A DNA stretch of 49,551 nt, from the NCBI GenBank assembly GCA_019456305.1, contig VRUD01000018.1, positions 1-49,551 of the forward strand, in the 5' to 3' direction. A program made the position numbers and the translations under genes. Positions 2,218 to 46,100 of the stretch are shown one piece after another. This stretch comes from Cytophagales bacterium (GTDB lineage: Bacteria > Bacteroidota > Bacteroidia > Cytophagales > VRUD01). The first letter of the stretch is position 1, and the number at the start of each line of letters is the position of its first letter. The notes under the pieces are model-generated. The model was not told the origin of the DNA. It did no database searches and saw only the letters and a program-made list of their open reading frames with translations.

Positions 2218-3205
2218 TCGAAAAATAATCCAATGACTGATAATTTCCCGTTCTCTCTTTCACTATCTGCATCAACACATCATTTGCCAGCCTGCTTGCA
2301 CCGAAACGGAACCAATCTGGTGAGAGCCAGGCACTGCCCAATGTTTCTTTCACCATCACTAAATAATGTAACGCCAGCTTTGCTTTGGAAATACCGCCTG
2401 CAGGTTTCATGCCCACCATCCTACCCGTTTCATAATAAAAATCCCGTATGGCTTCCAGCATGACCAGGGTAACGGGCATTGTTGCTGCAGGGGTGATCTT
2501 GCCGGTGGATGTTTTGATAAAATCTGCACCGGCATGCATGGCGATCTCGCTTGCTTTCCGTACGTTATCCAGGGTAGAAAGTTCGCCGGTTTCCAGGATC
2601 ACCTTTAAATGGGCTTTACCGCATGCTTCCTTTATTACTGCAATTTCGTCAAACACATAATTGTATTCTCCTTTCAAAAATTTACCCCTTGAAATGACCA
2701 TGTCCACTTCATCGGCCCCTTCCTGCACGGCAAATTTTGTATCGGCAATTTTTACCTCCAATGGCGCCTGCCCGCTTGGAAATGCCGTGGCAACTGAGGC
2801 CACTTTGATGGCGCTGCCTTTCAATGCGGCTTTTGCCACCCTGACAAGCGTAGCATAAACACAGATTGCAGCTACTGATGGCAGGTCATCCAAAGCATCA
2901 TGCAAATGCATGGCTTTATAGCACAATTGTTTCACTTTGCCGGGACTATCCATGCCTTCCAGCGTTGTAAGATCAATCATGCTCAGCACCAGCTTCAGCC
3001 CGGCTATCTTGGAATCTTTTTTTATGCTGCGCTTTGAAAACCTTGCCGCGCGTTCTTCTATACCTACCTGGTCTATGCGGGTGGTATTGGATAAAGCCCC
3101 CCTAAATCCCCCCAAAGGGGGGACTTTGCCATCGCTTTTGCCATGGGGTAGTTCAGATACTTTCATATTTTCTGTTGATTTATACGTTAAAATTTCTATG
3201 ATCAA
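2210..3205 (-). CDS. deoC: Deoxyribose-phosphate aldolase
   Basis: This class I aldolase (331 residues as drawn) cleaves 2-deoxyribose-5-phosphate to glyceraldehyde-3-phosphate and acetaldehyde in deoxynucleoside catabolism. The Schiff-base lysine is K231 in ADFIKTSTGK. The partner lysine is K267 in GMKPAGGIS, and the acid/base Asp is D168 in EVDMVISRGK. It is the long form common in Bacteroidota, with about 70 residues before the barrel. The start is uncertain: ATG at 3205 or ATG at 3166 (MKVSELPHG). The leader between either start and the conserved TTRIDQVGIEERAARF region contains a palindromic repeat translated as KVPPLGGFRG, which looks like an insertion. It lies 22 bp after the upstream outer-membrane-type gene. 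The aldehyde dehydrogenase downstream fits as the enzyme that removes acetaldehyde. Confidence 0.95.
   Translation of the reverse strand: MIIEILTYKSTENMKVSELPHGKSDGKVPPLGGFRGALSNTTRIDQVGIEERAARFSKRSIKKDSKIAGLKLVLSMIDLTTLEGMDSPGKVKQLCYKAMHLHDALDDLPSVAAICVYATLVRVAKAALKGSAIKVASVATAFPSGQAPLEVKIADTKFAVQEGADEVDMVISRGKFLKGEYNYVFDEIAVIKEACGKAHLKVILETGELSTLDNVRKASEIAMHAGADFIKTSTGKITPAATMPVTLVMLEAIRDFYYETGRMVGMKPAGGISKAKLALHYLVMVKETLGSAWLSPDWFRFGASRLANDVLMQIVKERTGNYQSLDYFSND
3093..3127. repeat. Palindromic repeat inside the deoC leader
   Basis: A hairpin of six C (3108-3113), AAA and six G (3117-3122) is flanked by AAAGCCCCCCTAAAT and ACTTT. It is translated in frame within deoC as roughly residues 27-38 (KVPPLGGFRGAL). 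The layout resembles a dispersed repeat that, to my knowledge, recurs in many Bacteroidota genomes both between and inside genes. It falls in the non-conserved N-terminal leader, where an insertion would do little harm. Confidence 0.7.
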
Positions 3206-3227
3206 ACTTCCATTCTATTTCTTTGCA

Positions 3228-3902
3228 CTAAAACAACCCCATACATCCATAGCAGCCCAGGCACTTTCCTTTATCAACACCGCTTTTAGTGCTTAGTAAT
3301 TGAAGCATTGGCTTCAAAAATATTTTTATTTTAACAATATAGATTGGTGCATTAAACTCACTTTTAACGATCGTTTCTTTTGTCAGCATCCTTCTATAAC
3401 CTAATCCTCCTCCAATTCCCAGCCAGGTAAAAAATTTGTAATAACCAGTCAATGAAAATGTAACAACTCCTACTGATTTATCGAAAAGAACCTTACCCGT
3501 TTCGACTTTATATGCTTTAATGCCACCTAACCCAAACTGTAAGGGTAAACTTATTTCTCCTCGTTTTTCTTTAAAAATTAAAAATTCCCAGTAGGGGCCT
3601 AAATAGTTAAACTCAATTTCAACAGTATCTTTTTTAGTTTTAAAACTTTTCAGGAAATAAAATCCCAGCCCGGCTCTTATTTTCCCCTCATACTCCAATC
3701 CGAGCTTTATCCCTCCCATTTTTGCTTTTTGATCAGTAATAAATGATTTTCTACCGTCAGTAGCAATGATAAATTTCATTGCGCTGATTGGTTCAGCAGT
3801 ATCCTTCTTAATATTTATGGGTGTACTATATTCTACGTCTTGTGTAAAAGCTGCTTTATATTGAAACACTAAAACCAGTGCTACTGTGATTAATCGTTTC
3901 AT
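3228..3902 (-). CDS. Outer-membrane beta-barrel-type protein, unknown function
   Basis: A 224-residue protein with an N-terminal signal peptide (MKRLITVALVLVFQYKAAFTQ) followed by alternating polar/hydrophobic segments rich in Gly and aromatic residues. Examples are LEYEGKIRAGLGFYF and GIGGGLGYRRMLT, as in small 8-strand outer-membrane barrels. It ends in Phe, typical of barrel C-termini. The last 20 residues are odd: a Cys- and Gly-rich tail (KGKCLGCYGCMGLF) follows the final predicted strand and may come from an inserted repeat. The gene sits 90 bp after the threonine dehydrogenase and 22 bp before deoC. Export and barrel type are inferred from composition; no specific function is recognised. 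Confidence 0.6.
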   Translation of the reverse strand: MKRLITVALVLVFQYKAAFTQDVEYSTPINIKKDTAEPISAMKFIIATDGRKSFITDQKAKMGGIKLGLEYEGKIRAGLGFYFLKSFKTKKDTVEIEFNYLGPYWEFLIFKEKRGEISLPLQFGLGGIKAYKVETGKVLFDKSVGVVTFSLTGYYKFFTWLGIGGGLGYRRMLTKETIVKSEFNAPIYIVKIKIFLKPMLQLLSTKSGVDKGKCLGCYGCMGLF

Positions 3903-3992
3903 GGGCGTAAGTATTGGTAGTTGGCTATTAGATATTGGATAATATCAAAAATAAAAATCAATTATCAAATATACAACATCCAAATTACAAAA

Positions 3993-4940
3993 TTACTTCA
4001 TTTCCAAATTATCAATCATATCCTTTGTCATTTTCACCAAATCATATTCATGCTGCCAGCCCCAGTCATTTCTGGCTGCAGTGTCATCAATGCTCTTAGG
4101 CCAGGAGTCTGCGATCTGCTGTCTGAAGTCTGGTTTATAGGAAATGGTAAAAGCGGGTATATGTTTTTTTATCTCATCTGCAAGTTGTTTGGGTGAGAAA
4201 TTAACGGCAGTTATGTTATAGGCAGAACGGACCTTTACTTTTTCTTTATTTACCCCCATCAAGTCTATAGTTGCTTTAATTGCGTCTGGCATATACATCA
4301 TTGGCAGGAAAGTATCCTCTGAAAGCGGGCATTCAAAGTGCTCGTTATTTGTAGCCTTATGGAAAATATCTACCGCATAATCAGTGGTTCCCCCTCCTGG
4401 CAGTGCTTTATAACCGATCAGACCGGGATAGCGTAAGCTTCTTACATCCACTCCGTATTTTTTAAAATAATATTCACACCATCGCTCTCCTGCCAGCTTG
4501 CTTATACCATAGACAGTAGCAGGTTCCATGATAGTGCTTTGTGGTGTATTATCCTTTGGTGTGTTGGGTCCGAATACGGCAATAGAGCTTGGCCAGTAAA
4601 TTTTTTTCAGCTTTTTCTCCTTTGCGGCATCCAGTACATTGATCAACCCGTCAATATTCAATTTCCAGGCAAATTTTGGCCTGTTTTCCCCGCTTGCTGA
4701 TAAAATAGCTGCAAGATGATATATATGCGTGATCTGATACCGGTCAATGATTGCATTGAGCCGGTCAGCATCCAAAACATCAAGTATTTCAAATATTCCC
4801 GATTCGGTTATCAGCTGCTTTGATTGTATAATATCAGATGCTATTACGTTATCAACGCCATAAACATCTCTGAAACAGATGGTTAGTGCGGTGCCTATCT
4901 GCCCGCAAGCTCCGATGATCAAAATTTTTTCCTGGCTCAC
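3993..4940 (-). CDS. tdh: L-threonine 3-dehydrogenase, SDR/epimerase type
   Basis: This 315-residue NAD-dependent enzyme of the extended short-chain dehydrogenase family carries the Rossmann motif GACGQIG (residues 10-16) at the very N-terminus. The catalytic YxxxK is YGISK (Y145, K149), preceded by a Ser in WPSSIAVFG. The sequence closely resembles the Flavobacterium-type threonine dehydrogenases, which oxidise L-threonine to 2-amino-3-oxobutyrate, and differs from the zinc-dependent E. coli Tdh. The start is GTG; no ATG lies upstream in frame, and GTG gives the N-terminal length usual for the family. The partner lyase (kbl) is not in the window. A nested palindromic repeat begins 16 bp upstream of the start codon. 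Confidence 0.86.
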   Translation of the reverse strand: MSQEKILIIGACGQIGTALTICFRDVYGVDNVIASDIIQSKQLITESGIFEILDVLDADRLNAIIDRYQITHIYHLAAILSASGENRPKFAWKLNIDGLINVLDAAKEKKLKKIYWPSSIAVFGPNTPKDNTPQSTIMEPATVYGISKLAGERWCEYYFKKYGVDVRSLRYPGLIGYKALPGGGTTDYAVDIFHKATNNEHFECPLSEDTFLPMMYMPDAIKATIDLMGVNKEKVKVRSAYNITAVNFSPKQLADEIKKHIPAFTISYKPDFRQQIADSWPKSIDDTAARNDWGWQHEYDLVKMTKDMIDNLEMK

Positions 4941-4956
4941 AAAAGTTGTCTTTTTT

Positions 4957-5067
4957 TGCCACTAAATCTCTAAAGCGCTAAATCCCACTAAAGAAATTGA
5001 CAATTGACAGTAGACAATTGACAATATGCCTGCTGTCAATTGTCAATTGTCTACTGATTTAGTGGCA
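4957..5067. repeat. Nested inverted repeat between tdh and the metalloprotease gene
   Basis: Two inverted repeats are nested. The outer arms TGCCACTAAATC (4957-4968) and GATTTAGTGGCA (5056-5067) are a perfect 12-bp match. The inner arms CAGTAGACAATTGACA (5008-5023) and TGTCAATTGTCTACTG (5041-5056) are a perfect 16-bp match. The outer motif recurs inside the MITE-like element at 14295-14389. A variant of the inner motif is used as coding sequence in the metalloprotease signal peptide at 7646-7680. The hairpin could end transcription of the metalloprotease gene, whose stop codon is only 7 bp away. Confidence 0.75.
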
Positions 5068-5073
5068 TAATTT

Positions 5074-7722
5074 TTACTTCTTTATATCCAACGCTTTTTT
5101 AATTAAAAACAAAATATGTTCACGATGAGCTTTTGTTACCGTATTTGTAAATTCGGCAGCAGATAACGTAACTTTGATCTGATTTAAATGAAAAAGGGCT
5201 AAGGATTGTGATATATTGTCGTATTGAGATTTCTTGCCACTGGTACCCGGGATGATGTTAATTAGGCGTTCAATGTATTCAATCTGCAGATTTTGCCTGA
5301 AAGAATTCACTACAGTGCCCTTGTCATCTCTAAATATGGCTTTTGTAAGATCATACATATATTCAGATAGCTTGTATTTGTTGCCATATAACTCAGAGTC
5401 AGTTATTCTTTTTAGTACATTCGGATGCAAAAGATGGTTTAAGATATCTTTCTGAATATTTAAGATCCTTTCGTGGATCCTGGGGTCTTCATTTTTTCCG
5501 AAATGATTGAACCCCCTCCTTTGTATTTGCAGATAATTATATAAATCAGCGGGGAAATTGAATGCATCTATACCAAATGCATATTTTGACAAAGCATTCA
5601 TAGCTCTTTTTTGCTCTTCATAGCTTACCGGTGTAAAGGGTTTGGAAGCGCCCTGCTGTCCTACCATAGCACGGTCAATATATACACCTCCTATATATCT
5701 TGAGATCACTTTCGCAGCAACATAATATTCGCGTGTCAGGATCAGGTAAGCGCTTCTCAATTCATGATAAGACTGCCCCTCAGTACTGTATTTTTCTTTA
5801 AGGTTTGAGAAAATGTTGTTGACTAATTTTATCCGGTCTATGGCATAGGTAATAGCATCACCAGACATATCCCCGATCATTATTTTTGGATCTATACCGG
5901 AACCAGGGCTGCGCATATCATCAGCATCATTGCCAAATGCCAGCATCGGATCAGTAGAGCGTGACAGGATACTATCTAATCGCTGCTTTTCTGCTTCCGG
6001 GTCATCTAATGCTTCAGAATAACCGTATAGAATCGCCCATTTGTCATAGGGTCCTGGTTTAACATCATAATAAAGCCCCTGTTTCTCTTTATCAAGGGCA
6101 ATATTCACAGGTGAATAATCCATTACAGAACCGGTAAGCCCGATCTCTAATGTTAAATTTCTATCGTTTATTTGTTGGGGTGAATGAAGCTGGCTGGCTT
6201 TCATGTTATGGTTCAGGCCAAAAGTATGGCCCAATTCATGCAAAATCAGGGCATATAATGACTGTTTAACCAATTCTTTATTTTCCATTTCTGACAGATC
6301 ATTCGCCTTCAGTGCACAGATCCCGAATAGCTTTTCCTGATGTAAGAAATCACCAAAAGAGCAGTATGCCAGCCCTCCTTTAACTCCGGGGATAATATCT
6401 TCCCCTTCCTGACCTGTGGTGGAGAGGGGGCCAGGGGGCGAGGTGGACACGCTTTCAAAAAGTTTTTCATACTTGAAACGATTGGTCATATAAATAAATT
6501 CCAGCATAATATCAGCGCCCAGGATCTGCCCTGTTCTCGGGTTGACAAAGCTGGGGCCGTATCCTCCAAAGGGAGGATTGGGTGATGAAGTCCATCTCAG
6601 AACATTATACCTGATATCACCCGCATCCCAGGTTGCATCATCAGGCTGGATCTTTACCTCGATTGCATTTAAAAAGCCTGCTGCTTCAAAAGCTTCGTTC
6701 CATGCAAGGGCAGCTTCCTTAATTATATCTCTGAACTCGTTCGGTGTTGTTTTTTCAATCCACCAAACTATCGGTTCAACCGGTACAGAGAGGTCTGCTT
6801 TTTTACGCTTTTTTTCCAGATGCCACCTGTGGACCAGGTCCCTGTAAGGTGTGGCGCTCACTGAGGTCATATTATCCACCTGACTGGTGAAATATCCCAC
6901 ACGCGGATCATCAAATCTGGGTACAAAGTTGTTTTGAGGCACTTCTAAGAGACTATGCTGGATTTTAACACTCACAAAGCGAGCATCCGTAACAGCTTTA
7001 CGACCGTAATTTACAGGATAAAAATTTTCATAAACGTATTCTACAACGATATCGGTATTCATTGGATAGTTTTTTATCCTGACATATTTGGTTTTTCCCT
7101 TGCTCAGCTTACCTAAATTAAAGCGTGTAGCCGCTTGTTTGTCTTTTGGATTTGGAGAAGGCTTGACCTGCTGCATACTCTCTTTGAGAAAAATATCATC
7201 TGCTTTGATCAGAAACTCTGTTTTGTTCTTGTTTTCTCCAACAATTATTTGATTTGCAAGAATAGCCCTGTTAATATTGGCGTCAGCAGCCCGGCTTAAT
7301 GGATTTTTTTCATCAAAATAATAGCCGGTATTTTCCAAAATAAATTCGATCTTGTTAAAGTACTTTTTTATCCTGAATATTTTTGCTCCCCTGTAAGCCC
7401 CCCTGAAATGCCGTGCATCCAGAATACCTTCCACGGTGTGGCTGAAATAAATATACTCCTTATTTAATTCATCTTTATGAATTAACATATAGAGTATTCC
7501 ATTTGTCGTGTCCTGATACAACGTAAACAGACCTTCATATTTCCTGCATGGCTTTGTTATCGATTTTATCGATTTTATTGTTTCCTTCTTTTTATTTTTG
7601 GCAGCTTCAATGATCTGTTCTTTGATTGATTTCTGGGCAAATGAAACAGTAGACAGCAGACAGTTGACAGTTGACAATAAAACCAATGCTACAATAACAG
7701 ATAAAATTCTTTTATTGACCAT
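5074..7722 (-). CDS. Secreted zinc metalloprotease, metzincin type (DUF5117 family)
   Basis: This 882-residue exported protein belongs to the large Bacteroidota metalloproteases with DUF5117/DUF5118-type regions. The zinc site is a full metzincin motif, HELGHTFGLNH, with ligands H495, H499 and H505 and catalytic E496. The Met-turn region follows at about residue 525 (GSVMDYSPVNIA). Start choice: translation can be extended 32 codons upstream, but ATG at 7722 (MVNKRILSVIVALV) begins a normal signal peptide and lies just downstream of a good promoter. Two in-frame repeat insertions are visible: one forms the signal-peptide core (LLSTVNCLLSTVS), and one adds TSPPGPLSTTGQEGED at about residues 423-441 in a surface region. 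The protein should act in the periplasm or outside the cell; its substrate is unknown. Confidence 0.88.
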   Translation of the reverse strand: MVNKRILSVIVALVLLSTVNCLLSTVSFAQKSIKEQIIEAAKNKKKETIKSIKSITKPCRKYEGLFTLYQDTTNGILYMLIHKDELNKEYIYFSHTVEGILDARHFRGAYRGAKIFRIKKYFNKIEFILENTGYYFDEKNPLSRAADANINRAILANQIIVGENKNKTEFLIKADDIFLKESMQQVKPSPNPKDKQAATRFNLGKLSKGKTKYVRIKNYPMNTDIVVEYVYENFYPVNYGRKAVTDARFVSVKIQHSLLEVPQNNFVPRFDDPRVGYFTSQVDNMTSVSATPYRDLVHRWHLEKKRKKADLSVPVEPIVWWIEKTTPNEFRDIIKEAALAWNEAFEAAGFLNAIEVKIQPDDATWDAGDIRYNVLRWTSSPNPPFGGYGPSFVNPRTGQILGADIMLEFIYMTNRFKYEKLFESVSTSPPGPLSTTGQEGEDIIPGVKGGLAYCSFGDFLHQEKLFGICALKANDLSEMENKELVKQSLYALILHELGHTFGLNHNMKASQLHSPQQINDRNLTLEIGLTGSVMDYSPVNIALDKEKQGLYYDVKPGPYDKWAILYGYSEALDDPEAEKQRLDSILSRSTDPMLAFGNDADDMRSPGSGIDPKIMIGDMSGDAITYAIDRIKLVNNIFSNLKEKYSTEGQSYHELRSAYLILTREYYVAAKVISRYIGGVYIDRAMVGQQGASKPFTPVSYEEQKRAMNALSKYAFGIDAFNFPADLYNYLQIQRRGFNHFGKNEDPRIHERILNIQKDILNHLLHPNVLKRITDSELYGNKYKLSEYMYDLTKAIFRDDKGTVVNSFRQNLQIEYIERLINIIPGTSGKKSQYDNISQSLALFHLNQIKVTLSAAEFTNTVTKAHREHILFLIKKALDIKK
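6399..6452. repeat. In-frame G/C-rich repeat in the metalloprotease gene
   Basis: A G/C-rich segment with GGAGAGGGGGCCAGGGGGCG at its core interrupts an otherwise AT-rich gene. On the coding strand it reads CGCCCCCTGGCCCCCTCTCC and is translated TSPPGPLSTTGQEGED. It separates family-like sequence ending FKYEKLFES from sequence starting IIPGVKGGLAYCSFGD. The abrupt change of base composition and low-complexity translation suggest an inserted dispersed repeat. Confidence 0.6.
7646..7680. repeat. ACAGT/TTGACAG repeat used as signal-peptide core
   Basis: Tandem copies of the motif ACAGTAGACAGCAGACAGTT / GACAGTTGACAATA lie inside the 5' end of the metalloprotease gene. On the minus strand they read TTGTCAACTGTCAACTGTC and are translated as the hydrophobic LLSTVNCLLSTVS. 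The same family of repeats appears outside genes at 5000-5056 and about 21828-21855. Confidence 0.6.
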
Positions 7723-8751: not shown

Positions 8752-11700
8752 ATGAAAAAATCAAATCTCTTCCACGCAGCAGTTGCCATTGCAACTTTCT
8801 ACTTTCTAACTTTACAAACTTTCAACTGCTTTGCACAGCCCCCCCCCACCATCTCCTCCTTCACCCCTTCATCGGGTGCAGTAGGCACATTGGTAACCAT
8901 TACAGGCACTAATCTAAGCATCCCCACGGCTTTTACCATTGGCGGAGCTACTGCCATAGAGGTATCCAATATCGGAACCACATTAGTAGGCTTGGTAATG
9001 CCCGGCGCTGTTACAGGCGCTGTATCTGTTACCACAGCAGGAGGCACAGCAATAAGTGTCAGTAATTTTACGGTTACACCAACACCTTACCCTGGCTTAC
9101 AGCAGGGAAATAAATTAGTCGGCACAGGGGCTGTGGGCGCTGCACGACAAGGTTGGTCTGTTTCCATTTCATCCGATGGGAATACGGCTATCGTGGGAGG
9201 ATTAGGTGATAGTAGCTGGGCAGGAGCAGCCTGGGTTTATACCCGCACCGGCGGAGTGTGGACACAGCAGGGAAGTAAATTGGTCGGCACAGGGGCTGCG
9301 GGCGCTGCATTTCAAGGCATCTCTGTTTCCATTTCATCCGATGGGAATACGGCTATCGTGGGAGGATATCAAGATAATTCTGCTGCAGGAGCTGTATGGG
9401 TTTATACCCGCTCCGGCGGAGTGTGGACACAGCAGGGAAGTAAATTGGTAGGCACAGGGGCTGTGGGCGGTGCAGAGCAAGGCGCCTCTGTTTCCATTTC
9501 ATCCGATGGGAATACGGCTATCGTGGGAGGAGATGGTGATAGTAGCTTTGCAGGAGCAGCATGGGTTTATACCCGCTCCGGCGGCGTGTGGACACAGCAG
9601 GGAAGTAAATTGGTCGGCACAGGGGCTGTGAGCTCTAACGTTCAACAAGGCGCCTCTGTTTCCATTTCATCCGATGGGAATACGGCTATCGTGGGAGGAA
9701 TTGGTGATAGTAGCGGTATAGGAGCAGCATGGGTTTATACCCGCACCGGCGGAGTGTGGACCCAGCAGGGAAGTAAATTGGTCGGCACAGGGGCTGTGGG
9801 CGCTGCAAATCAAGGCATCTCTGTTTCCATTTCATCCGATGGGAATACGGCTATTGTGGGAGGACGGTTTGATAATAGCAGTGCAGGAGCAGCATGGGTT
9901 TATACCCGCTCCGGTGGAGTATGGACACAGCAAGGTAGTAAATTGGTCGGCGCAGGTGCTGCGGGCGCTGCATATCAAGGCATCTCTGTTTCCATTTCAT
10001 CCGATGGGAATACGGCTATCGTGGGAGGACATCGTGATAGTACCAATGCAGGAGCAGCGTGGGTTTATACCCGCTCCGGCAGTGTGTGGACACAGCAAGG
10101 AAGTAAATTGGTCGGCACAGGGGCTGTTGGTTCACTCGTTTATCAAGGTTACTCTGTTTCCATTTCATCCGATGGGAATACGGCTATCGTGGGAGGATAT
10201 CGTGATAATACCGATACAGGAGCAGCATGGGTTTATAGCGTCTGTACTGTTACGGGTACTCCTGCATCCGCAGCAATTTGTTCAGGAGACAGCATTTTAA
10301 TCAATGGAACATACAGAAGCGCAGCGGGAACTTATACCGATACGCTCACAGCGGTGAATGGCTGCGACAGCATCATTGCAACCACTTTAATGCTAAATTC
10401 AAACCCTGTTATCATTTCATTTACCGTAACCTCTATTGGCTGTACACCGCTTAATAATACGCTATGTGTTACTACAACCGGTGCCGATACACTCTTTTGG
10501 TATTTTGGGGATATGACTTATGATACAACCTTATCAGATACCTGTCTCACCCATATTTATACCAATGTTACCGCCAGTCCTGTTTTTTACAATCCAACCA
10601 TAATTATAGAGAATGTTTTTGGCTGCAGGGATACAGCTTCAGCAACAGTTACGGTTTTACCACCGGTAACTGCTGCATTTACTGCTTCGCCAGATACGGC
10701 CGGCTGTCATCCTTTTACGGTTGATTTTCAAAATTCCTCAACAGGTGCGGATAATGGCTACTTGTGGGATTTTGGAGACGGAAGTCCGGCAGTTAATGAT
10801 ACAAATCCTACCCATATATTTACCAATACAGCAAGCCTGATTGATAGTATTTATACCGTTAGATTGATCGCTACCGGTTTTCCGATCTGTAAAGATACTG
10901 CTGTACGACAAATATTAGTACATCCAATACCAACAGCAAGCTATACAGTAAGCGATACTGTTGGCTGTGTAGGCGATACTGCCTTTTCTACCAATACAAG
11001 TACCGGAGCGACTTCATACCTGTGGCAGGTAGATGGTATTACTTTAAGTACAGATACAAATGCTTTTATAATAGCGCCTATACCCGGCACTTATGCATTC
11101 AGGTTAATAGCATCAGATGGTGTATGCAGCGATACCTCAGCAGAGACAATTATAACGGTCTATGCTTTACCCACTGCAAGTATTACAGGCACAGATCTAA
11201 GCTGTACCGCAGCTAATGATGGGGCTGCTGACCTGACAGCTTCCGGTGGCGCCCCGCTTTCATACAACTGGTCTAACGGAGATACTACTGAGGATATCAT
11301 GGGTTTGTCTGTTGGTACCTACACGGTGATCGTTACCGATACGAATGGCTGCACAGCAACTGACAGTGTTATGATCTCAATTACCGGTAACTTAATAGTT
11401 GTCATAACAAGCATAATTGATGCTTCATGTATTGAACTATGTGATGGCGTAGCTTCTGCATTTATAACCGCAGGAACAGGAACTTACCAGTGGAATGATC
11501 CTTCAGGGCAAACAAATCCCATAGCTAATAACCTCTGTACAGGTGAATATAACGTAGTTGTAACTGATTCTGCCGGCTGTACTGATACAGCCACTGCAAT
11601 AGTTGGGTCACTCCCTGAATTGACCCTGGCCATCACTCCAACAAATTCGACTTGCGGCAACACAGATGGCAGTGCAACGGTAAATGTGTCCAATGGCGCT

Positions 11701-14251: not shown

Positions 14252-14261
14252 TTTTGAGTTT

Positions 14262-14414
14262 TGAGTCCACTCTAAAAAGTCCGAAAAATAAAAATGCCAC
14301 TAAATCACCAAAGCACTAAATCCCACAAAACCCTGAAAATCAATTAGTTAATTTTTAGTGGGATTTAGTGTTTTTGTGCTTTTGTGGCAAAAAAGACTTT
14401 TTAGAGTGGACTCA
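14262..14414. mobile_element. MITE-like element with two nested inverted repeats
   Basis: Perfect 20-bp terminal inverted repeats, TGAGTCCACTCTAAAAAGTC (14262-14281) and its complement (14395-14414), bound a 153-bp segment with no coding capacity. Inside are imperfect 32-bp arms, 14295-14326 and 14358-14389, beginning TGCCACTAAATC and ending TTTTGTGGCA. The whole segment could fold into one long hairpin. A second copy of one terminal repeat with two changes stands alone at 40596-40615. It lies 32 bp downstream of the recA stop codon and could end recA transcription. Confidence 0.7.
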
Positions 14415-14446
14415 GTTTTAAAAATAAGATTTGTAATTTGAAAGTT

Positions 14447-15718: not shown

Positions 15719-16924
15719 ATGAAAACAATCATAATGAAAAAATTATTATTTCTTACTTTCCTGTCTATCTTTTTAATTAATCCCGTACCAGCCCAATTAG
15801 ACAACAGCGCTTTTTACGATGAAATAACAATTGCATCTAATACTAAAAACAAGCTCTATCTTGGTATCAATAACCTTAATTTTGCAAAGAACAATGAATA
15901 CTTCAATAAAATAGCCGATGGCTATACCTTGTTCGGTTTTCAGCTCAATCCAGCGCTTATTTATTACCCTTCTGACAATGTCCGCATTGATGGGGGCATA
16001 TTTTTGTGGAAAGACTTTGGCAATGACAGGTTTTCTCAAATAGCTCCTACCTTTACAATAACGATTAAGAAAAACGATCTCCGTTTTCTCTTCGGGAATT
16101 TAACCGGGAGCCTCAATCACAGGCTGATAGAACCCATTTATGATTTTGAAAAAATCATGCTTGACAGATTGGAACACGGAGCTCAGCTTATTTTGAAAAA
16201 AAATTGGTTGTACTTCGATGCCTGGATAGATTGGGAAAAAATGATATACCGGGATTCTCCTTTTCAAGAAGAAGTATCAGGAGGGCTATCGACAAATTTT
16301 ATATTATTAAAAAAACAAGATAGTAATACAAATGAAGGGAACCTTTCCCGACCTGCGGTGCGGGACAGGTCGGCTTCGCCTCGCAATAAAAATCTGACAT
16401 TTGAAATACCTTTTCAATTTTTTGCCTATCATAAAGGCGGACAGATTGATACAAATACCACACCGCTATTATCTGTACTTAATACAGCCGTGGGGTTTTC
16501 TATTGATAAGAGATTAGGCTCAAAGGTGTTTTATGATCTTCGCACTGATAATTATTTTGTTTATTATAAGGATTTTTCATTAACAAAAAGGCAAGCATTT
16601 AATGAAGGAACCGGCATTTACCTCAACCTCGCATTAAAAACAAAATTTCTAACGCTGATGGTTAGCTATTGGCAGGGAGAAAGGTATATCGCTGAATATG
16701 GTGGTAAGTTGTATCAATCAGTATCAAGTAAAAAACAGGGGGAGTATGAGGGGGTACGTCAATTGCTTTTTCTCAGGTTCATGCATGATGTAAAAATAAC
16801 AGACAATATATTCCTGGTATTCCGCTTTGAACCTTATTATGATTTTGTTAATGATAAAATAGAATTTTCCCACGGGTTGTATGTGACTTACGGGCAGGAT
16901 ATTTTTTTGAAGAAAATAAAATAG
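15719..16924 (+). CDS. Exported outer-membrane-type protein, unknown function
   Basis: A 401-residue protein with a signal peptide (cleavage near PVPAQ, about residue 26) and many short amphipathic, aromatic-rich segments (NYFVYYKDFSLTKR, FRFEPYYDFVNDKIEFSHG). These suggest an outer-membrane beta-barrel of 14-18 strands. ATG at 15734 (MKKLLFLTF) is an alternative start. About residues 206-225 contain an inserted palindromic repeat read as SRPAVRDRSASPR; sequence before and after it looks like normal family sequence. It is transcribed divergently from recA from its own promoter and ends 13 bp from the convergent coxA stop. No named family is recognised. Confidence 0.6.
   Translation: MKTIIMKKLLFLTFLSIFLINPVPAQLDNSAFYDEITIASNTKNKLYLGINNLNFAKNNEYFNKIADGYTLFGFQLNPALIYYPSDNVRIDGGIFLWKDFGNDRFSQIAPTFTITIKKNDLRFLFGNLTGSLNHRLIEPIYDFEKIMLDRLEHGAQLILKKNWLYFDAWIDWEKMIYRDSPFQEEVSGGLSTNFILLKKQDSNTNEGNLSRPAVRDRSASPRNKNLTFEIPFQFFAYHKGGQIDTNTTPLLSVLNTAVGFSIDKRLGSKVFYDLRTDNYFVYYKDFSLTKRQAFNEGTGIYLNLALKTKFLTLMVSYWQGERYIAEYGGKLYQSVSSKKQGEYEGVRQLLFLRFMHDVKITDNIFLVFRFEPYYDFVNDKIEFSHGLYVTYGQDIFLKKIK
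16339..16390. repeat. In-frame palindromic repeat in the 15719 gene
   Basis: CCGACCTG (16348-16355) and CAGGTCGG (16366-16373) form a perfect 8-bp inverted repeat in a GC-rich island of about 50 bases. It is translated in frame as LSRPAVRDRSASPR within an otherwise AT-rich gene. I recognise this as the CCCGACCTGCGGTGCGGGAC type of dispersed repeat seen in Bacteroidota assemblies. Confidence 0.65.
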
Positions 16925-27700: not shown

Positions 27701-27967
27701 TTTTTTGATAGGAGTTTCACAGGCGGCTAAAGATGCTGCGGCTACACTGAAACCAACCATTTTTAAAAAATCACGCCTGTTGGATGATAAAATACCGGAA
27801 CTCCGGAGATTTTCTCCATTAGGATCATTTACCTGCCTGCCCGCAGGCAAAGAGTAGAAGGATGCCGGCAAAGGTTCGGAAAACTCTTTACCGGCATTTT
27901 CCAAAAATTCAGGATCTTTATTGAGTTCTTCAATTCCCTGCCAGTATTTTTTAGTGTTGTTTTTCAT
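24758..27967 (-). CDS. actB: Alternative complex III, iron-sulfur subunit ActB
   Basis: A 1069-residue periplasmic subunit. The N-terminus holds a twin-arginine export motif RRDFLK (R64-R65) and a lipobox-like LAAC (C83). About residues 100-760 resemble molybdopterin oxidoreductases, but this domain in ACIII carries no molybdenum. The C-terminal part has four ferredoxin-type Cys clusters: CIGCSACLIGC from C829, CQHCNRAPCETVCP, CIGTRFCANNCP and CTMCVQRI with CARSCP. A string LPAGRQV at residues 40-46 is encoded by a palindromic repeat inserted before the export signal. That leaves the Tat motif unusually far from the start. The subunit links quinol oxidation in ActC to the hemes of ActA and ActE. 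Confidence 0.97.
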   Translation of the reverse strand: MKNNTKKYWQGIEELNKDPEFLENAGKEFSEPLPASFYSLPAGRQVNDPNGENLRSSGILSSNRRDFLKMVGFSVAAASLAACETPIKKAIPYLNKPEEIDPGVANWYASSYMDGSDYCSVLVKTREGRPIKIEGNKLSGVTMGGLNARAQASVLSLYDNGRLKGPRKIENGKDKYISWEDADKKVISKLEKIAENNGQIRIISSTLISPATKKVVDDFLAKYPTAKHITYDANSSSAILYANKATFDKYLIPSYDFSKANIIVSIGADFLGTWISPVEYARQYSKTRKIGKSRKSMSRHYQFESVLSLTGANADHRSTIKPSQQGLVVAALYNELAELAGRETINTEPVKNVKFIDKAVSDLWLNKGRSLVVCGSNDVSVQILVNKINQLLINYGNAVEIDVPSFQKQGDDAAMGSFIENVRKGNISAVIFYNANPVYDHPSGSDLADALKNVGLKVSFGDRVDETASLCDYICPDHHYLEAWNDAEPKKGYFSLGQPTISPIFKTRAAQESLLKWANIQKDYYSYLKESWKSNLFPLQTKYTSFQKFWDKSLHDGVFELAPNVNYTSIHEGMEGEKNFSTALNDLASKINKKYKANPQTSELVLYEKIGIGTGSQANNPWLQELPDPITKACWDNYLSVSAKYAKDQGLTQDDYVKIEAGDNSVVLPVLIQPGQAFGTAAIAIGYGRKNAGKCANGIGKNAYPFASITDGSLNFSTSNVKITKTEKPQDENHKDLHLNTRITRVGRGDRGNVAQTQTHHTFMDRDAIVQEATFEEYLKDPKAGRDFPKVQTHEGPKDPKDVSLWPKGHEEHEHPNHHWGMVIDMNSCIGCSACLIGCQAENNVPVVGKEEVLNRREMHWIRIDRYYSSDAEKDDLDGLDVPSEDPEVTFQPMMCQHCNRAPCETVCPVLATTHSTEGLNQMVYNRCIGTRFCANNCPYKVRRFNWFKYPENDQFDYNMNNELGKMVLNPDVTVRSRGVMEKCTMCVQRIQEGKLKAKKENRRPIDGEFTTACARSCPTEAIVFGDMNDPKSKISKTLEEENKDRAYHVLEELNTQPNVSYLTKIRNK
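27834..27849. repeat. Palindromic repeat inside the actB leader
   Basis: TGCCTGC (27834-27840) and GCAGGCA (27843-27849) form a perfect 7-bp inverted repeat around CC. It is translated in frame as LPAGRQV, a peptide I have seen repeatedly in Bacteroidota proteins carrying this repeat. It sits in the variable leader before the Tat motif. Confidence 0.65.
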
Positions 27968-29565: not shown

Positions 29566-30279
29566 TTGAACACTTTTATAAAAAACCTAACACGCTCCTT
29601 TAAAAATTCCCTGCCAGGTGAAGTTGCCCAGTACAAGATGGCGCCTTATGGACGTTTATTAAAAGAAGAGGCATTAAAGCTCAATGCAAATCCCAGGCTT
29701 AGTGCTGTACTGATATTACTTTATCCTGTTAAAGGAGCAAAGCGCATAGAGCATAGCCCCGCCAGTTGGAGGGGTAAAGAGCATCACTCAAAGGGCTCTG
29801 CGTTCAGCATATATACAGTTTTGATTTTACGAACATCTGATCATGGAGTCCACAGCGGACAGGTAAGCTTTCCGGGAGGGAAAAAAGAAGAAAGTGACAG
29901 ATCGTTGGAGGATACAGCATTAAGGGAAGCAGAGGAGGAGATTGGCATCAAGAAAAATGATGTAAAAGTAATAGGTCCCTTGTCAGAGCTTTATATACCT
30001 ACCAGCGGGTTTTTAGTACAACCTTTTGTTGGATACTTAAATAAAAAACCCTTATTTCATCCCGACAAGAATGAAGTGCAAAAATTGATTGAAGTGCCGC
30101 TTGATCTTATTATGGATGATGGTATTGTAAAAGTAACCACCATTCTAAAATCAAAAACCCGAAATCAAAAATCCGAAATTCGAATACCTTATTTTGACAT
30201 ACATGGAGAAGTAGTCTGGGGAGCTACGGCTATGATGTTGAGTGAATTGAAAGAGATTTTAGTGGGTATAGGGATATAA
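29566..30279 (+). CDS. Nudix hydrolase (CoA pyrophosphatase-like)
   Basis: A 237-residue Nudix protein. The Nudix helix reads REAEEEIGI (R120-I128), preceded by HSGQVSFPGGKKEESD, the pattern of CoA/ADP-ribose-type pyrophosphatases (NudL family). The start is TTG at 29566: a TAA lies four codons upstream, no ATG fits, and homologous sequence (FIKNLTRSFKNSLPGEVAQYK) begins well before the first internal ATG. A TATATTTG box lies at 29525-29532. Two in-frame repeats interrupt the domain: about residues 57-81 (AKRIEHSPASWRGKEHHSKG), between two strands that are normally adjacent, and KSKTRNQKSEIR near residue 198. Both should form surface loops; activity is probable because all catalytic residues are intact. 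Confidence 0.85.
   Translation: MNTFIKNLTRSFKNSLPGEVAQYKMAPYGRLLKEEALKLNANPRLSAVLILLYPVKGAKRIEHSPASWRGKEHHSKGSAFSIYTVLILRTSDHGVHSGQVSFPGGKKEESDRSLEDTALREAEEEIGIKKNDVKVIGPLSELYIPTSGFLVQPFVGYLNKKPLFHPDKNEVQKLIEVPLDLIMDDGIVKVTTILKSKTRNQKSEIRIPYFDIHGEVVWGATAMMLSELKEILVGIGI
29734..29808. repeat. In-frame palindromic insertion in the Nudix gene
   Basis: Outer arms AGCGCATAGAGC (29741-29752) and GGCTCTGCG (29794-29802) pair imperfectly. Inner arms CCCCGCC and GGAGGGG flank AGTT (29757-29774). The 75 bases are translated without a stop (AKRIEHSPASWRGKEHHSKG). They separate ILLYPV from YTVLIL, which are contiguous in ordinary members of the family. Confidence 0.6.
30147..30183. repeat. AAATC-rich in-frame repeat in the Nudix gene
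   Basis: Tandem units AAATCAAAAACCCG and AAATCAAAAATCCG with a partial third copy are translated LKSKTRNQKSEIR, just before PYFDIHGEVVWG. The units resemble the AAAATCCCAA-type repeats around the four-helix-bundle gene at 13451-13972. Confidence 0.5.
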
Positions 30280-40574: not shown

Positions 40575-40595
40575 GTCTTTTATATGTTTAAGTGT

Positions 40596-40615
40596 TGAGT
40601 CCACTCCGAAAAGTC
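40596..40615. repeat. Solo copy of the MITE terminal repeat
   Basis: TGAGTCCACTCCGAAAAGTC matches the terminal repeat of the 14262-14414 element at 18 of 20 positions. No partner arm was found within several hundred bases on either side. It lies just upstream of the subtilase start codon, so it may now be part of its promoter or leader. Confidence 0.65.
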
Positions 40616-40954: not shown

Positions 40955-40970
40955 CGATTAATTTTCCTTA

Positions 40971-41939
40971 ATGAAAAAAATATTTATTATATTATCAATC
41001 ATTACCTTATTTTTGCTCCTGACTATTTATCTTTTAACCAATCCGCTCATGAGTTCATCAAATAACAATAAACCGAAAATACCTGTAAACAAAGATCGCC
41101 TTTATGCTGATGTAAAAGCGCTTACTTCCATTGATCCGCCAAGAAATTTCAACTATATTTCTTCACTTAACCAAAGCGCTGATTATATCTTTTCTGAATT
41201 TAAAAAGCTGGGATCTGATGTAGAAGTACAAAATTATACTGTTGAAGATTCTGAATATAAAAACATCATCTGTTCGTTTGGCCCGCAAGATGCGCCACGG
41301 ATCATTATTGGTGCACACTATGACGTTTGCGGTGACCAGCCCGGTGCAGATGATAATGCCAGTGGCGTTGCCGGCTTGTTAGAAACGGGCAGGATGATAA
41401 ATGAATTAAAACCTCAATTAAAATATCGCATAGACCTTGTTGCATATAGTCTTGAAGAGCCTCCTTTTTTTCGTACAAAGTATATGGGAAGCGCTGTTCA
41501 TGCCAGGTCTCTGGCTAAAGCCGGTGTTAAAGTAAAAGCCATGATCAGCCTGGAGATGATAGGGTTTTACAGAGATGAACCGGGGTCACAGCATTTCCCG
41601 GTATTTTTTCTTAAATGGTTTTATTCTGACAAAGCAAATTTTATTGCTGTGGTAGGCAAACTATGGCAGAGAAAAATAGTGAAGCAGATCAAAAAAAGCA
41701 TGATTTTAGGTTCAAATATAGATGTGTATTCCATTAATGCTCCGGTTTTGCTTCCGGGTATTGACTTTTCAGACCACTTAAATTACTGGAACCATGGCTA
41801 CCAGGCAGTCATGATCACCAATACATCGTTTTTCAGAAATCCCAACTACCATGAAGTAACAGACAAGATTGAAACTTTAAATTTTGATAAAATGGCAGAA
41901 GTGGTGAAGGGGGTTTATTGGACGGTTGTTCAATTTTAG
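40971..41939 (+). CDS. M28-family zinc aminopeptidase
   Basis: A 322-residue membrane-anchored or exported metallopeptidase. One hydrophobic segment (residues 4-24) leads into the catalytic domain. All co-catalytic zinc ligands are recognisable: H116 in GAHYDVCG, bridging D127 in GADDNASG, catalytic E162 and ligand E163 in SLEEPP, an acidic residue in SLEMIGFY, and the last His in NYHEVTDK. M28 enzymes release N-terminal residues from peptides, which suits a neighbourhood of secreted endoproteases. It is followed by the CAP-domain gene after 21 bp. Confidence 0.92.
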   Translation: MKKIFIILSIITLFLLLTIYLLTNPLMSSSNNNKPKIPVNKDRLYADVKALTSIDPPRNFNYISSLNQSADYIFSEFKKLGSDVEVQNYTVEDSEYKNIICSFGPQDAPRIIIGAHYDVCGDQPGADDNASGVAGLLETGRMINELKPQLKYRIDLVAYSLEEPPFFRTKYMGSAVHARSLAKAGVKVKAMISLEMIGFYRDEPGSQHFPVFFLKWFYSDKANFIAVVGKLWQRKIVKQIKKSMILGSNIDVYSINAPVLLPGIDFSDHLNYWNHGYQAVMITNTSFFRNPNYHEVTDKIETLNFDKMAEVVKGVYWTVVQF

Positions 41940-41960
41940 ATTTATTAAATTATCACTTGA

Positions 41961-42596
41961 TTGATCATGATACATTATACTTTTAAAAGCCGGGTGAACC
42001 CTCAAGCTATTTTCATCGTTCTTTGTTTACTTTTGTACGTGAGGGTTTCATTTTGTCAACATAAAAAAGATGAATTGTTAAAAGCTGTTCAAATTAACTT
42101 TGAACAATTAAATAAAGTAAGAAAATTTCCACAAATATATGCCTTTAAATATTTTATACCGGCATTATTATGGAAGCTGCCTAAAAGATCCTTAACCTGG
42201 GATACTACTTTAGCCAGGTTGGCACAGATGAAAGCAGAAGATATGGCTGCAAAAAACTATTTTGATCATATTGATAAAAATGGCAAAGGCATGAATACGG
42301 TTCTGTGGCAGGCAGGTTATCCTTTGCCTGAATATGACAAGAAGGGGTTTATTTATGAAAAAGACCCCAAAGCCAATAATGTAGAATCAATTTCAGCATA
42401 TAGTGAATCTCCGGACAAATTCATAAAAGACCTGATCAAAGATAAAGGTGAATGGTCAAAAGGACATAGAAAGCACTTGTTAGGAATAGGAAGATTTGAT
42501 CGCCAGCATACCCATGCCGGCATCGGAATAGCCTGGAACCCCCAATCAGAATATGGGTACTATTGCTCTGTGTTGATAGTGCACAAATTGCAGTAG
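41961..42596 (+). CDS. Exported CAP-domain (SCP/PR1-like) protein
   Basis: A 211-residue protein with a signal peptide (about residues 15-33, VLCLLLYVRVSFCQ) and a CAP domain. The family markers are NFEQLNKVRKFPQIY, LARLAQMKAEDMAAKNYFDHID and GHRKHLLGIGRF, with the cavity His residues (FDHID and H in GHRKH) present. An alternative start is ATG 41967. CAP domains occur in secreted proteins of varied function in bacteria; enzymatic activity is not established. It probably shares a transcript with the M28 peptidase. Confidence 0.88.
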   Translation: MIMIHYTFKSRVNPQAIFIVLCLLLYVRVSFCQHKKDELLKAVQINFEQLNKVRKFPQIYAFKYFIPALLWKLPKRSLTWDTTLARLAQMKAEDMAAKNYFDHIDKNGKGMNTVLWQAGYPLPEYDKKGFIYEKDPKANNVESISAYSESPDKFIKDLIKDKGEWSKGHRKHLLGIGRFDRQHTHAGIGIAWNPQSEYGYYCSVLIVHKLQ

Positions 42597-42637
42597 TACC
42601 TAATTTCATAAATACTCTTTATTATGAAACTTAGTAG

Positions 42638-42688
42638 TAGGTTTACTAACCCTCAGATGGCATAGGTTTTGGAGGGTTAGTAAACCTA
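42638..42688. terminator. Perfect 17-bp hairpin after the CAP gene
   Basis: TAGGTTTACTAACCCTC (42638-42654) and GAGGGTTAGTAAACCTA (42672-42688) are exact complements around a 17-base loop, 42 bp after the stop codon. It is the likely 3' end of the peptidase-CAP transcript, though it lacks a clean T-run and resembles dispersed repeats of the phylum. Confidence 0.5.
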
Positions 42689-42819
42689 ATTTCCGATATC
42701 CAATACTCAAAAAAAATCTGCTGTGTATTTTAAAAATTACGCTTAATTAAATGTGTGATTAATTTTATAGGTATATGCGTTTAGGTCGCACAAGATTTAT
42801 ACTTTTGAATATGTATGAG

Positions 42820-42956
42820 TGACTAACCACGCCATTTATGGCGTGGACATTAAAGAATAAAACTGACAGGGCTTTAGCCCAATTATGCTAAAAACGGGCT
42901 AAAGCCCAGGGTTTGTATAGTTTGATTATCTCCGCCATAAATGGCGGAGTTAGTCA
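42820..42956. repeat. Composite of three palindromes inside a larger inverted repeat
   Basis: Outer arms TGACTAAC (42820-42827) and GTTAGTCA (42949-42956) enclose three hairpins: CCACGCCATTTATGGCGTGG (42827-42846), GGGCTTTAGCCC with GGGCTAAAGCCC (42869-42880 and 42896-42907) and CTCCGCCATAAATGGCGGAG (42930-42949). The first and third share the CGCCATxxATGGCG core. No coding sequence is present. The rest of the 540-bp gap (42689-42819 and 42957-43092) holds nothing recognised. Confidence 0.7.
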
Positions 42957-43092
42957 GCCATAAATAGACACAATCTTCAATTTGTTTATAAAAAGGATGG
43001 TAGAGAATGAGTAAAAGCCAACAAACTCTTTCAATTTTATTATCATTATCAAATTTTCTCCCAAAATTTACCCATTAAATAAAAACTATCCC

Positions 43093-43100
43093 TACATTTG
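43093..43100 (+). promoter_or_regulatory. Candidate -7 box before the last subtilase gene
   Basis: TACATTTG matches TAnnTTTG exactly, 38 bp before the ATG at 43139. No TTG lies at 17-23 bases upstream, so only half of the consensus is supported. Confidence 0.3.
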
Positions 43101-43138
43101 AAACTTTTAACTTTGGAAATTTTCGACTTTTTGTAATC

Positions 43139-46100
43139 ATGAAAAATTATTGCTCAAAACCCGGTTACCAGCGCCAGTATTTGCGTGCTCAAAAAACAGG
43201 ATCCCGGATATGGTCTGTCCCGACAAAGCCGGGAGGTCTTTGTAAAATTGCCCTTTTATGCTGCTTGTTTTTATTGCCTAATTACTCAAATGCCCAGGTG
43301 AAACAATCCTCAGGCAAATATGAGCTGTTATTAAAATCGGCTTCTGTGATGCCAGAGGAAAACCTCCGGGATTTTATTAATGAGCCTGATATTAAAGCAG
43401 GGGAAAAGTTTGAAGGGCGGTATTTCAAATTCATTCAATTTTATGAAATACCAAACCGGGATGATCGTGAAGAAATAGAAAGTATGGGGATCCAATTATT
43501 AAATTATATACCACATAATACTTATGCTGCATCCATTCCTGAAAATTTTGATCCCGGATCGTTACAAGAGCTCAATGTAAGAAGTGTGATCAGTATTGAA
43601 GCGGACTATAAAATAGATAACCGGCTGAAAACGCTGCCCTACCCAGACTGGGCGTTATATGGTGATAATAGCATAGATATAGTTGTTCAATATTATAAAA
43701 ACATAGATCCCACCAAAGCAAAAAAATTATTAATTGAACGTGGTATCAAGATTATAAGCGCCTATGATTATTTGTATCTTGTCACGATCAGGGTAAATAT
43801 TTCAGAGATTGAAAGCATAGCCTCCCTGCCTTTTATCTCATGGGTTGAACCCATTGCATCTCCTTCGGTTCCTGATGATACAAAAGGAAGAACCCTTCAC
43901 AGGGCAAATGTATTAGACTCTGATCATGCTTTGGGAAGACATTATGACGGAACAGGGGTTAGTTGTGCGCTTGGCGATGATGGCCCCATTGGCCCTCATA
44001 TTGACTACCAGGGCAGGGTAGATCAATCAAATACTACAGCCAATACCGGCAATCATGGCGATATGACTTCCGGGATTATGATGGGTGCAGGCAATATAGA
44101 CCCAACTATCAAGGGGATGGCTGCTGGCGCTTTTTTATACGTGTATGATATCTCCGGCTACAACCATATTCTTGATGCTCCAAGTAACCTCACAAATTTT
44201 GGGGTAGTGATTACCTCTACATCCTACAGCCAGGGTTGTAATGCTGGCTATACAACAAATGCCAGTTCGGGTGACCAGATGATCAGGCAAAATCCTTCGT
44301 TAATCCATGTTTTCTCAGGTGGTAATAGCGGCAACAGTGATTGCGGGTATGGAGCAGGTACGGGTTGGGGGAATATTACGGGTGGTTATAAGCAGGGTAA
44401 GAATGTGATCGCCTGTGGAAATCTTAATGATAAGGATGCTCTTGTAAGCAGCAGCAGCAGGGGCCCTGCTGATGATGGCAGAATTAAGCCCGATATTTGT
44501 GCCAATGGTGTTGGCCAACTATCAACCGATGATCCCAATACTTACCAGGTTGGAGGAGGCACTTCTGCGGCAGCGCCCGGAATTGCAGGTGTTCTGGCTC
44601 AATTATACCAGGCTTACCGTGAGCTCAATTCCGGTGCAGATCCTGAATCACCGTTACTAAAAGCCTGTTTATTAAATACGGCTGAAGACCTCGGAAATCC
44701 TGGCCCTGACTTTTCATTCGGCTGGGGAAGGGTTAATGCATTCAGGGCTGTGAAAACACTGGAAGATAACCGGTACCTGGATTCTGCAATAAGCCAGGGA
44801 GGCGCCAATACCCATAATTTAACCGTCCCGGCAGGCGCCAAGCAATTGAGAGTAATGCTTTACTGGCTGGATTATGAAGGAGCGCCTGCCGCTGCGAAAG
44901 CATTGGTCAATGACCTGAATATGCAGGTCACCGACCCTTCCGCTGTGGTTTATGATCCCTGGGTATTGGATCCCACTCCTAATCCTGTTAACTTAAATTT
45001 AAATGCTGTCAGAGCAGTGGATGATCTGAATAACATGGAACAGGTGACCATTGACAACCCGCCAGCAGGTAGCTATACTATTACGGTAAATGGATTCCAG
45101 GTGCCGCAAGGCCCTCAAAAGTATTATATCGTTTATGAATTTCCTGATGATGATGTTACGCTTACTTATCCAATTGGTGGTGAAGGTTTTGTACCGGGAG
45201 AGACAGAATTATTACGCTGGGATGCTTATGGATCTATCCTGACTTTTTTGTTAGAATACTCCATTAACAATGGCGCCAGTTGGATTACTATAGGTTCAGT
45301 CAGTGCAGCACAAAGATATTATGACTGGACAGTGCCTGGTGTCCTTACCGGAGAGGCATTGGTCAGGGTTACCAGGGGGGCTTTCAGTGATGTGAGCGAT
45401 ACTACTTTTTCAATCATTGGTGTGCCTCAAAACCTGGCAATAGACTGGGCATGCCCTGATACTATACAACTAAACTGGGACACTGTAACCGGTGCCACAG
45501 GTTATGAAATAAGCATGCTGGGCAGTATGTATATGGATTCGATCGGCACCACGAGCGCTGACTCCATTGTGGTTTACGGTATCAACCCGCTTTTAGAATA
45601 TTGGTTTAGTGTAAAAGCCTTAGCTCCAGCCAATGCCAGAGGAAGACGAGCCATTGCCATACAAAAAAATCCGGGAACCTTCAACTGTGCCATACCCATT
45701 GACGCAGCCCTCACTGAGATCATCAATCCAACAGGTGGAACATTACAGGGTTGCCAGGATTACTCATCTGTGACCGTCTCAATTCGGTTGAACAATTACG
45801 GCATTGATACTATTTCAACTATTCCATTGCACTACCAGGTCAATGGCGGGCCGGTGGTAAATGATACTTTTCCGGATACCCTTGCACCGGGCAGTTCTGC
45901 AGTACATAATTTCTTATCTGCCGAAAATTTTTCAGTACCAGGTAATTATAATATATCTGCGTGGGCAGATTATCCTTCAGATGGAAATGCTTATAATGAT
46001 ACGAGCAAGACGATGATTGAGGTAGTTACGGGTACGCTCGTTGGCCTTCCCTGGTCTGAAGATTTTGAAACCTTTGCTCTTTGTGCAACTACGGCTGATT

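Follow-up and report, generated by a model that had tools for sequence, protein, structure and literature searches.

Short repeats that sit in frame within protein-coding genes and are tolerated there are best known from Rickettsia, with cases in other phyla. The Rickettsia palindromic elements (RPE) were reportedly described by Ogata in 2000 and 2002. Here we describe a comparable situation in a Cytophagales bacterium of the phylum Bacteroidota, starting from a stretch of 49,551 bases (the window) that carries eight short repeat segments within its genes. This window opens contig 18 (VRUD01000018.1) of a draft genome of 4.25 Mb in 159 contigs. Several unrelated repeat families have very probably spread in this genome, and, judging from the comparisons of sequence given below, copies inside genes would survive only if they are in frame and be tolerated as segments rich in proline and glycine. 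The copies are repeated, they are absent from homologues, they preserve the reading frame, their peptides have an unusual composition and their hosts include several housekeeping proteins.

Two described systems lie closest. For the RPE of R. conorii, the part of PMC10969869 covered here places "nearly half" of 44 elements in open reading frames (ORFs), compared with 38 of 49 sampled sites for the main family of this genome. The second system is the intragenic GTAG/CGTC class of repetitive extragenic palindromic sequences (REPs). In the parts of PMC3733652 covered here, these occur within genes in several phyla, many of them in replication and repair genes. Two inserts are present in uvrA of O. 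terrae and of Thioalkalivibrio, and inserts measure 20-30 amino acids, up to 82. Most REPs are nevertheless intergenic according to the same parts, which record CGTC repeats in Bacteroidetes and name no intragenic case there (PMC3733652). Among the titles listed by a literature search of limited scope, none reported in-frame intragenic repeats in Bacteroidota.

An earlier note on the window, made from its letters alone, had placed at least eight repeat segments inside open frames and called most of them palindromic and more GC-rich than their hosts. All eight lie in open frames at the positions it gave. Six are GC-rich and form hairpins; the other two, at 7646 and 30147, are tandem arrays that are not palindromic and not rich in GC. 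GC content is 0.57 for the deoC segment, 0.70 for 6399, 0.40 for 7646, 0.62 for 16339, 0.75 for 27834, 0.57 for 29734, 0.30 for 30147 and 0.57 for 43201. No exact second copy of any of the eight was found inside the window, so the window alone is unable to settle whether they are repetitive. BLAST of the eight segments against an initial sample of the bacterium's own genome gave further copies (E <= 0.01) only for the deoC segment, the first Nudix segment (nud1) and the 7-nucleotide (nt) array; copies of the 15719 and 6399 motifs emerged only from pattern searches of the whole genome. Except where matches in the whole genome are given, the censuses that follow use 701 kb sampled from this genome, much of it chosen for sites of the deoC type, with 379,186 bp chosen independently of repeats. 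Each pattern was compared with its reversed form and with one Markov shuffle, in which patterns matched 0 or 1 time. For the deoC core and one 7-mer the reversed control is uninformative, as both read the same backwards. The 58 relatives compared belong to the same order and none to the same family.

Five of the eight segments add peptide relative to homologues, and in those homologues the peptide is missing. In the Nudix hydrolase gene, the nud1 hairpin repeat beginning GCGCATAGAGCATAGCCCCGCC lies in frame at 29734-29808 (+). None of the 29 aligned homologues has its peptide of ~23-25 amino acids; three of them carry a different stretch of ~9 residues there. The nud1 core occurs at 20 sites (reversed 0, shuffle 1) and its hairpin at 18 (0 and 0). 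In the N-terminal region of ActB, a 16-bp palindrome at 27834-27849 (-) encodes the peptide LPAGRQ. It forms part of ~11 extra amino acids missing from all 29 aligned homologues, out of 80 loci taken. By their record titles, these ActB relatives (best 80 of 577) are nearly all Bacteroidota of the Cytophagales type, at 52-58% identity, which suggests the same placement for this bacterium. The complete palindrome is found at one site, its own, and the half motif at 19 (reversed 0, shuffle 0). The first-listed ActB relative (L111, CALPQG020000009.1; 58%) is titled Bifidobacterium breve and encodes a Bacteroidota-type protein; the title looks wrong.

In the gene starting at 15719, a GC-rich hairpin repeat at 16339-16390 (+) inserts ~21-24 amino acids in frame. 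These residues are missing from 24 of 24 aligned homologues. The motif matches five times in the whole genome (control 0), and one exact copy lies where the flanks are not both coding. When examined for a terminal GTAG or CGTC tetranucleotide, the insert showed ATTGCGAGG with TTTT before it, but a second copy has TGTCATTGCGAGG adjoining. For deoC, the 35-bp segment named earlier (3093-3127) is present, and the real element is longer. It is a REP element lying in frame in the N-terminal coding region at 3090-3145 (-; limits approximate), and it includes a AAAGCGATGGC arm common to other copies in the genome. Where the window has MKVSELPHGKSDGKVPPLGGFRGALSNTTRIDQVG, homologue G010 has MSKVIEIPDFRHTPTVDKVG, a net gain of 15 amino acids counted by eye. 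G010 is the only homologue close enough at the DeoC N-terminus; other genomes align from about residue 76 or later. A purely extragenic position for the deoC segment was considered and rejected, since the homologous N-terminus aligns on both sides of it. The fifth case is less clean. In a Met-zincin protease, a GC-rich hairpin repeat at 6399-6452 (-) occupies the linker that joins DUF5117 to DUF4953. Seven homologues are shorter here by a net 5 to 13 amino acids (counted by eye), in a linker that is itself variable. The motif of the repeat matches 18 times in the whole genome against 9 when reversed, which is weak by count; the related copies inspected have a common hairpin.

The remaining three segments do not stand as insertions in the same way. 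A 7-nt tandem array of the CAGTTGA type at 7646-7680 (-) lies within the hydrophobic run of the signal peptide of the same Met-zincin protease, a leader whose start is uncertain. This 7-mer type occurs at 21 sites (shuffle 0). A hairpin repeat with a TCCCGACAAAGCCGGGA core at 43201-43240 (+) falls in the leader of a 2205-residue ORF (43079-49693). The core has four sites, with 0 in both controls; the segment may affect the leader only, as the start codon is uncertain. The 14-nt tandem (AAATCAAAAACCCG) at 30147-30183 (+) in the Nudix gene is weak as an insertion, with three sites for the unit against one reversed and only ~3-4 amino acids in excess of homologues. As a whole, the earlier observation holds in large part, five of the eight segments being extra peptide, and the phenomenon is more extensive than the note had described. 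Most of the segments recur in the genome, the evidence being weak for the ActB palindrome and the 30147 unit.

The deoC type is the main family. Its pattern has 74 genome matches against 7 for the reversed control. The exact 18-mer occurs 65 times in the bacterium's own genome; the reversed 18-mer occurs 18 times there, because the reversed letters belong to the same repeat. Elsewhere in the order it was found once, in a single genome (G238). It is missing from the other 388 of 390 genomes of the order that were scanned, and from the other 394 of 395 scanned in the phylum. Many copies are inverted pairs with a core-to-core span of 91 or 103 bp, and spans of 95 and 139 bp were each seen once. 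The ends of the copies inspected are CAGC/GCTG. In each orientation two of the three frames are free of stops. At 26 sites only the frame encoding SPPKSP or GGFRGA is used and at 9 only the other open frame, with 2 sites mixed and 1 unassigned (p 0.006). Inserts from paired copies (473 residues) contain 20% proline and 22% glycine, against 3% and 7% in the hosts.

Reading frames provide a further line of evidence. Of the 49 deoC-type sites in the sampled DNA (a further copy, C5:17999, lies outside it), 38 fall inside stop-free ORFs of at least 80 amino acids, and 30 of these have a coding score of at least 0.01 per base on both sides. Coding was scored with a model trained on 175 long ORFs, which found the right frame in 1159 of 1183 stretches of 120 nt from the same ORFs. 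We also applied a test that is independent of ORF calls and asks only whether the two flanks of a site continue in one coding frame. This test omits "edge" sites near the ends of sampled stretches. For the deoC type it gave 22 sites in the same frame and open, 1 shifted and 0 with a stop, along with 1 between opposite-strand flanks, 19 with flanks not both coding and 6 edge sites. Neutral insertions would leave about 2 in 9 open, as against 22 of 23 (p ~8e-14). The single shifted case is a copy of a short, mostly intergenic subtype. Random positions in the same test gave 1517 open and 98 shifted or stopped (n=3000), so that the repeat, open at 22 of 43 sites, does not differ from random positions in its open share (p 1.0). 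A second flank setting gave 24 open sites, with 1698 of 3000 random positions open. Preservation of the frame indicates that selection on the genes acts across the insert, and the insert is thus most likely translated.

AT-rich repeats provide an internal control. Three AT-rich dispersed families of the same genome, represented in the window at 14261-14415, 40595-40615, 4957-4978 and 14295-14389, were not once spanned by a continuous coding frame (0 of 45 non-edge sites, and again 0 with the other flank setting). A scan free of family definitions, using 16-mers that occur in at least three places far apart, found 423 repeat islands. A continuous coding frame runs through 108 of them; 24 are shifted, 10 contain a stop, 20 lie between opposite genes, 238 have flanks not both coding and 23 are at edges. 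Among GC-rich islands with same-strand coding flanks, 73 are open, 3 shifted and 2 stopped. Of the corresponding AT-rich islands, 21 are open, 19 shifted and 7 stopped. Sequence also found in another frame or outside genes is carried by 93 of the 108 in-frame islands, and 38 of these 93 lie in the 379,186 bp not chosen for repeats. Extrapolating from these 38 islands, we estimate ~300-425 in-frame repeat segments in the whole genome, the low end being obtained by dropping 7 low-complexity and 4 paralogy-like islands. A relative of the same order, G045, has 1 dispersed 16-mer against 616 here at nearly equal lengths; its GC content is 0.56 against 0.37 here, and Markov shuffles of both genomes give no dispersed 16-mer.

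The hosts of these inserts include conserved proteins. They were aligned to solved homologues, and 17 of 20 further hosts have a Pfam match. UvrA has four extra stretches of ~44-47 amino acids each, derived from several kinds of repeat. One of them lies directly before FFIFDEPTTGLH, which we take to be the second Walker B motif. AroB (L048:8481-9830, -) has ~92 extra amino acids in frame between GHALE and HGEAI, mostly from a 7-nt tandem array. Relative to solved homologues, PrmC is longer by ~31 and AtpG by ~36-38 amino acids. PheT has extra stretches of 9 and 30 amino acids, AlaS of ~31 and ~38, and PcrA has 10 extra residues. Inserts of the deoC type fall inside domains in a metallo-beta-lactamase fold, in the OB-fold of the exonuclease VII (ExoVII) large subunit (XseA) and in Asn synthase. 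In MutL such an insert lies between the two domains, and in transketolase at the start of the C domain. In DNA polymerase III delta (HolA) and a ComEC-type protein it lies outside the matched domain. Five of the proteins with inserts act in repair or replication: UvrA (L285:3223-6663, -), PcrA (L049:11454-13880, -), MutL (L259:2668-4668, -), XseA (L267:2296-3726, -) and DNA polymerase III delta (L266:2597-3601, +).

With these data the likeness to RPE that the earlier note had drawn is borne out: in-frame insertion is tolerated in unrelated proteins, it extends well beyond the window, and copies from several repeat families are in frame at once. That interpretation is supported, and neither of the two outcomes that the note had named as refuting it was seen: most segments recur in the genome, and homologues lack the peptides of five of them. 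Its further suggestion, a route to new peptide segments that is general to the lineage, is at most a possibility; among the genomes of the order and phylum scanned, the deoC-type 18-mer occurs in only one other, and there once.

A mechanism can be proposed from these patterns. The dispersed families would comprise hairpins similar to REPs or miniature inverted-repeat transposable elements (MITEs), some of them in inverted pairs of roughly 110-130 bp, together with 7- and 14-nt tandem arrays. The hairpins may be moved by HUH (Y1) transposases, whereas replication slippage is the likelier source of growth in the arrays. The main family is now present within genes at about the frequency expected of random positions. 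Copies causing a frameshift or adding a stop would be lost with the cell, and the survivors in genes would be those that keep the frame and use a stop-free one. Their translation products, flexible segments rich in proline and glycine, would be accommodated in loops, linkers, leaders and signal peptides and tolerated by the host, probably without a function of their own. The genome contains seven candidate genes for Y1_Tnp (HUH) transposases. Palindromes of another kind, palA, are located upstream of two of these genes, at distances of ~75 and 150-190 bp (C42:26165, L292, and C61:7768, L296). This proximity is suggestive of a pairing of REPs with REP-associated tyrosine transposases (RAYTs), for palA only.

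Several observations weigh against this account of spread and tolerance. No deoC-type repeat was found flanking any of the seven Y1 genes. Eleven of the 49 deoC-type sites are outside any stop-free ORF of 80 amino acids. Among the 38 inside one, C21:7474 (85 amino acids, negative coding score) is clearly spurious; counting it, eight sites miss the coding threshold on one side or the other, and some of those with weak scores belong to genes identified by homology (PheT, Asn synthase, M1 peptidase). Among islands of all kinds, 34 are shifted or stopped between same-strand coding flanks, 26 of them AT-rich. With 21 AT-rich islands open against these 26, frame-keeping is not clear for AT-rich repeats, and it is the GC-rich kinds that carry the frame result. 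Another 15 of the 108 in-frame islands occur in the same frame only, where paralogy or low complexity is possible, and were set aside. At the protein level, a third AlaS insert, of the deoC type (552-598), lies beyond the ranges that were aligned, and for Asn synthase and XseA the alignments to solved structures do not cleanly bracket the insert. A single-sequence fold of the Nudix protein was unusable (mean predicted local distance difference test score, pLDDT, 31.5).

A bolder version goes beyond spread and tolerance. It holds that several independent repeat-generating processes hit essential genes at roughly the general rate, that the extrapolated 300-425 in-frame segments are remodelling the proteome, and that a further repeat, palB, makes coding palindromes by inverted duplication of its flanks. 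We regard this version as tentative and, taken whole, rather doubtful. The palB core, GAGACGCCCAAATTGGGCGTCTC, matches 106 times when both strands are searched and up to 1 mismatch is allowed, a total in which many sites are counted once per strand. The core is often at the centre of a larger palindrome whose arms differ between sites. Examples are C3:74445, C1:52223, C1:66543, C2:52841, C7:30197 and others, some within L343-L371. At 21 of 39 distinct sampled sites the inverted arms score at least 12, compared with 23 of 20,000 random centres; the figure for palA is 1 of 34 sites. No 12-mer is common to any two of the 21 palB arms, and one arm searched genome-wide was found only at its own site. 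Eight of the 21 palindromes lie in open coding frames. Some arms are other repeats of the genome, giving nested structures (C7:30197, C4:55162). Two routes could give this arrangement: palB may insert at the tips of palindromes already present, or its insertion may itself duplicate the flanking sequence as an inverted copy. To our knowledge, inverted flank duplication around a fixed hairpin tip is not among the known modes of insertion.

The inserts could instead be retained because they alter the activity of their hosts; in DNA-repair proteins, for example, this might produce a mutator state. UvrA with its four inserts, PcrA, MutL, XseA and the DNA polymerase III delta subunit fit this idea, and the parts of PMC3733652 covered here describe hosts of this class in other phyla and raise a mutator effect as speculation. 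The 26-to-9 skew towards one open frame (p 0.006) also favours it; the same skew, however, fits plain selection against harm too. Many hosts are moreover outside repair, among them AroB, AtpG, PrmC, AlaS, transketolase and two-component propellers. Retention for function is an unlikely explanation.

Removal of the segments before or during translation, by RNA excision or ribosomal bypassing, would leave normal proteins, and hairpins in the middle of essential genes invite the thought. Removal would free the frame, yet 22 of 23 deoC-type and 73 of 78 GC-rich cases keep it; for this reason excision and bypassing were rejected, and their probability is very small. Equally improbable is an artefact of mis-assembly, pseudogenes or wrong starts that put intergenic repeats into false leaders: the draft is in 159 contigs, one deoC-type copy is at the very start of a contig (C56:1) and the leader starts at 43201 and 7646 are uncertain, but inserts lie mid-gene between homologous halves, with coding signal on both sides and the frame kept in many genes, and the genome is 98.39% complete with 0.23% contamination.

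The window also has long tandem or spaced repeats in large ORFs, at 8982-10237, 46104-47610 and 48225-49551, with units of 165, ~840 and 465 nt. These are apparently ordinary repeat proteins, unrelated to the inserts.

Spread of several families with tolerance of in-frame copies is the reading that we prefer, and it extends the precedents to another phylum and to a genome of normal size, with several families at once in alaS, pheT, atpG, uvrA, mutL and aroB. The inserts provide a natural map of insertion tolerance in conserved proteins. They also provide a system for asking whether repeats supply proteins with new segments or are only a tolerated burden. The presence of repair proteins recalls the reported intragenic REPs in repair genes.

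In comparison with known systems, this genome resembles RPE, as far as covered in PMC10969869, in having short palindromic repeats in frame in unrelated genes and also outside genes, with several families per genome. It differs in that the host belongs to the Bacteroidota and not to Rickettsia, non-palindromic tandem arrays are involved, and a protein may carry up to four inserts. The intragenic GTAG/CGTC REPs, in the parts of PMC3733652 covered, likewise occur singly or paired within ORFs, with uvrA, a UvrD-type helicase and a tRNA synthetase among shared kinds of host. In the copies inspected the deoC type, in contrast, ends in CAGC/GCTG with no terminal GTAG or CGTC, and this main family is in coding frame as often as random positions, unlike the REPs of those parts. 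Inverted hairpin pairs at fixed spacing (91 or 103 bp) and the presence of Y1 genes recall the REPIN/RAYT systems in the portions covered of PMC3116915 and PMC2817692, in contrast to which the deoC-type repeat flanks none of the seven Y1 genes. Intragenic enterobacterial repeat units, as the covered part of PMC2759123 presents them, are also small and mobile, with open frames that have become fused to annotated genes, but they are other elements in another phylum. Coding palindromes of Nematomorpha mitochondria are, in the covered part of PMC6649704, perfect inverted repeats in coding sequence, as at some palB sites; the palB palindromes, however, are bacterial and have a common repeated centre, and those of Nematomorpha are longer, up to 284 bp. 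The system described here is an extreme form of known intragenic repeat insertion, with precedents in Rickettsia and Opitutus, and it probably stands outside both the RPE and the GTAG/CGTC REP families.

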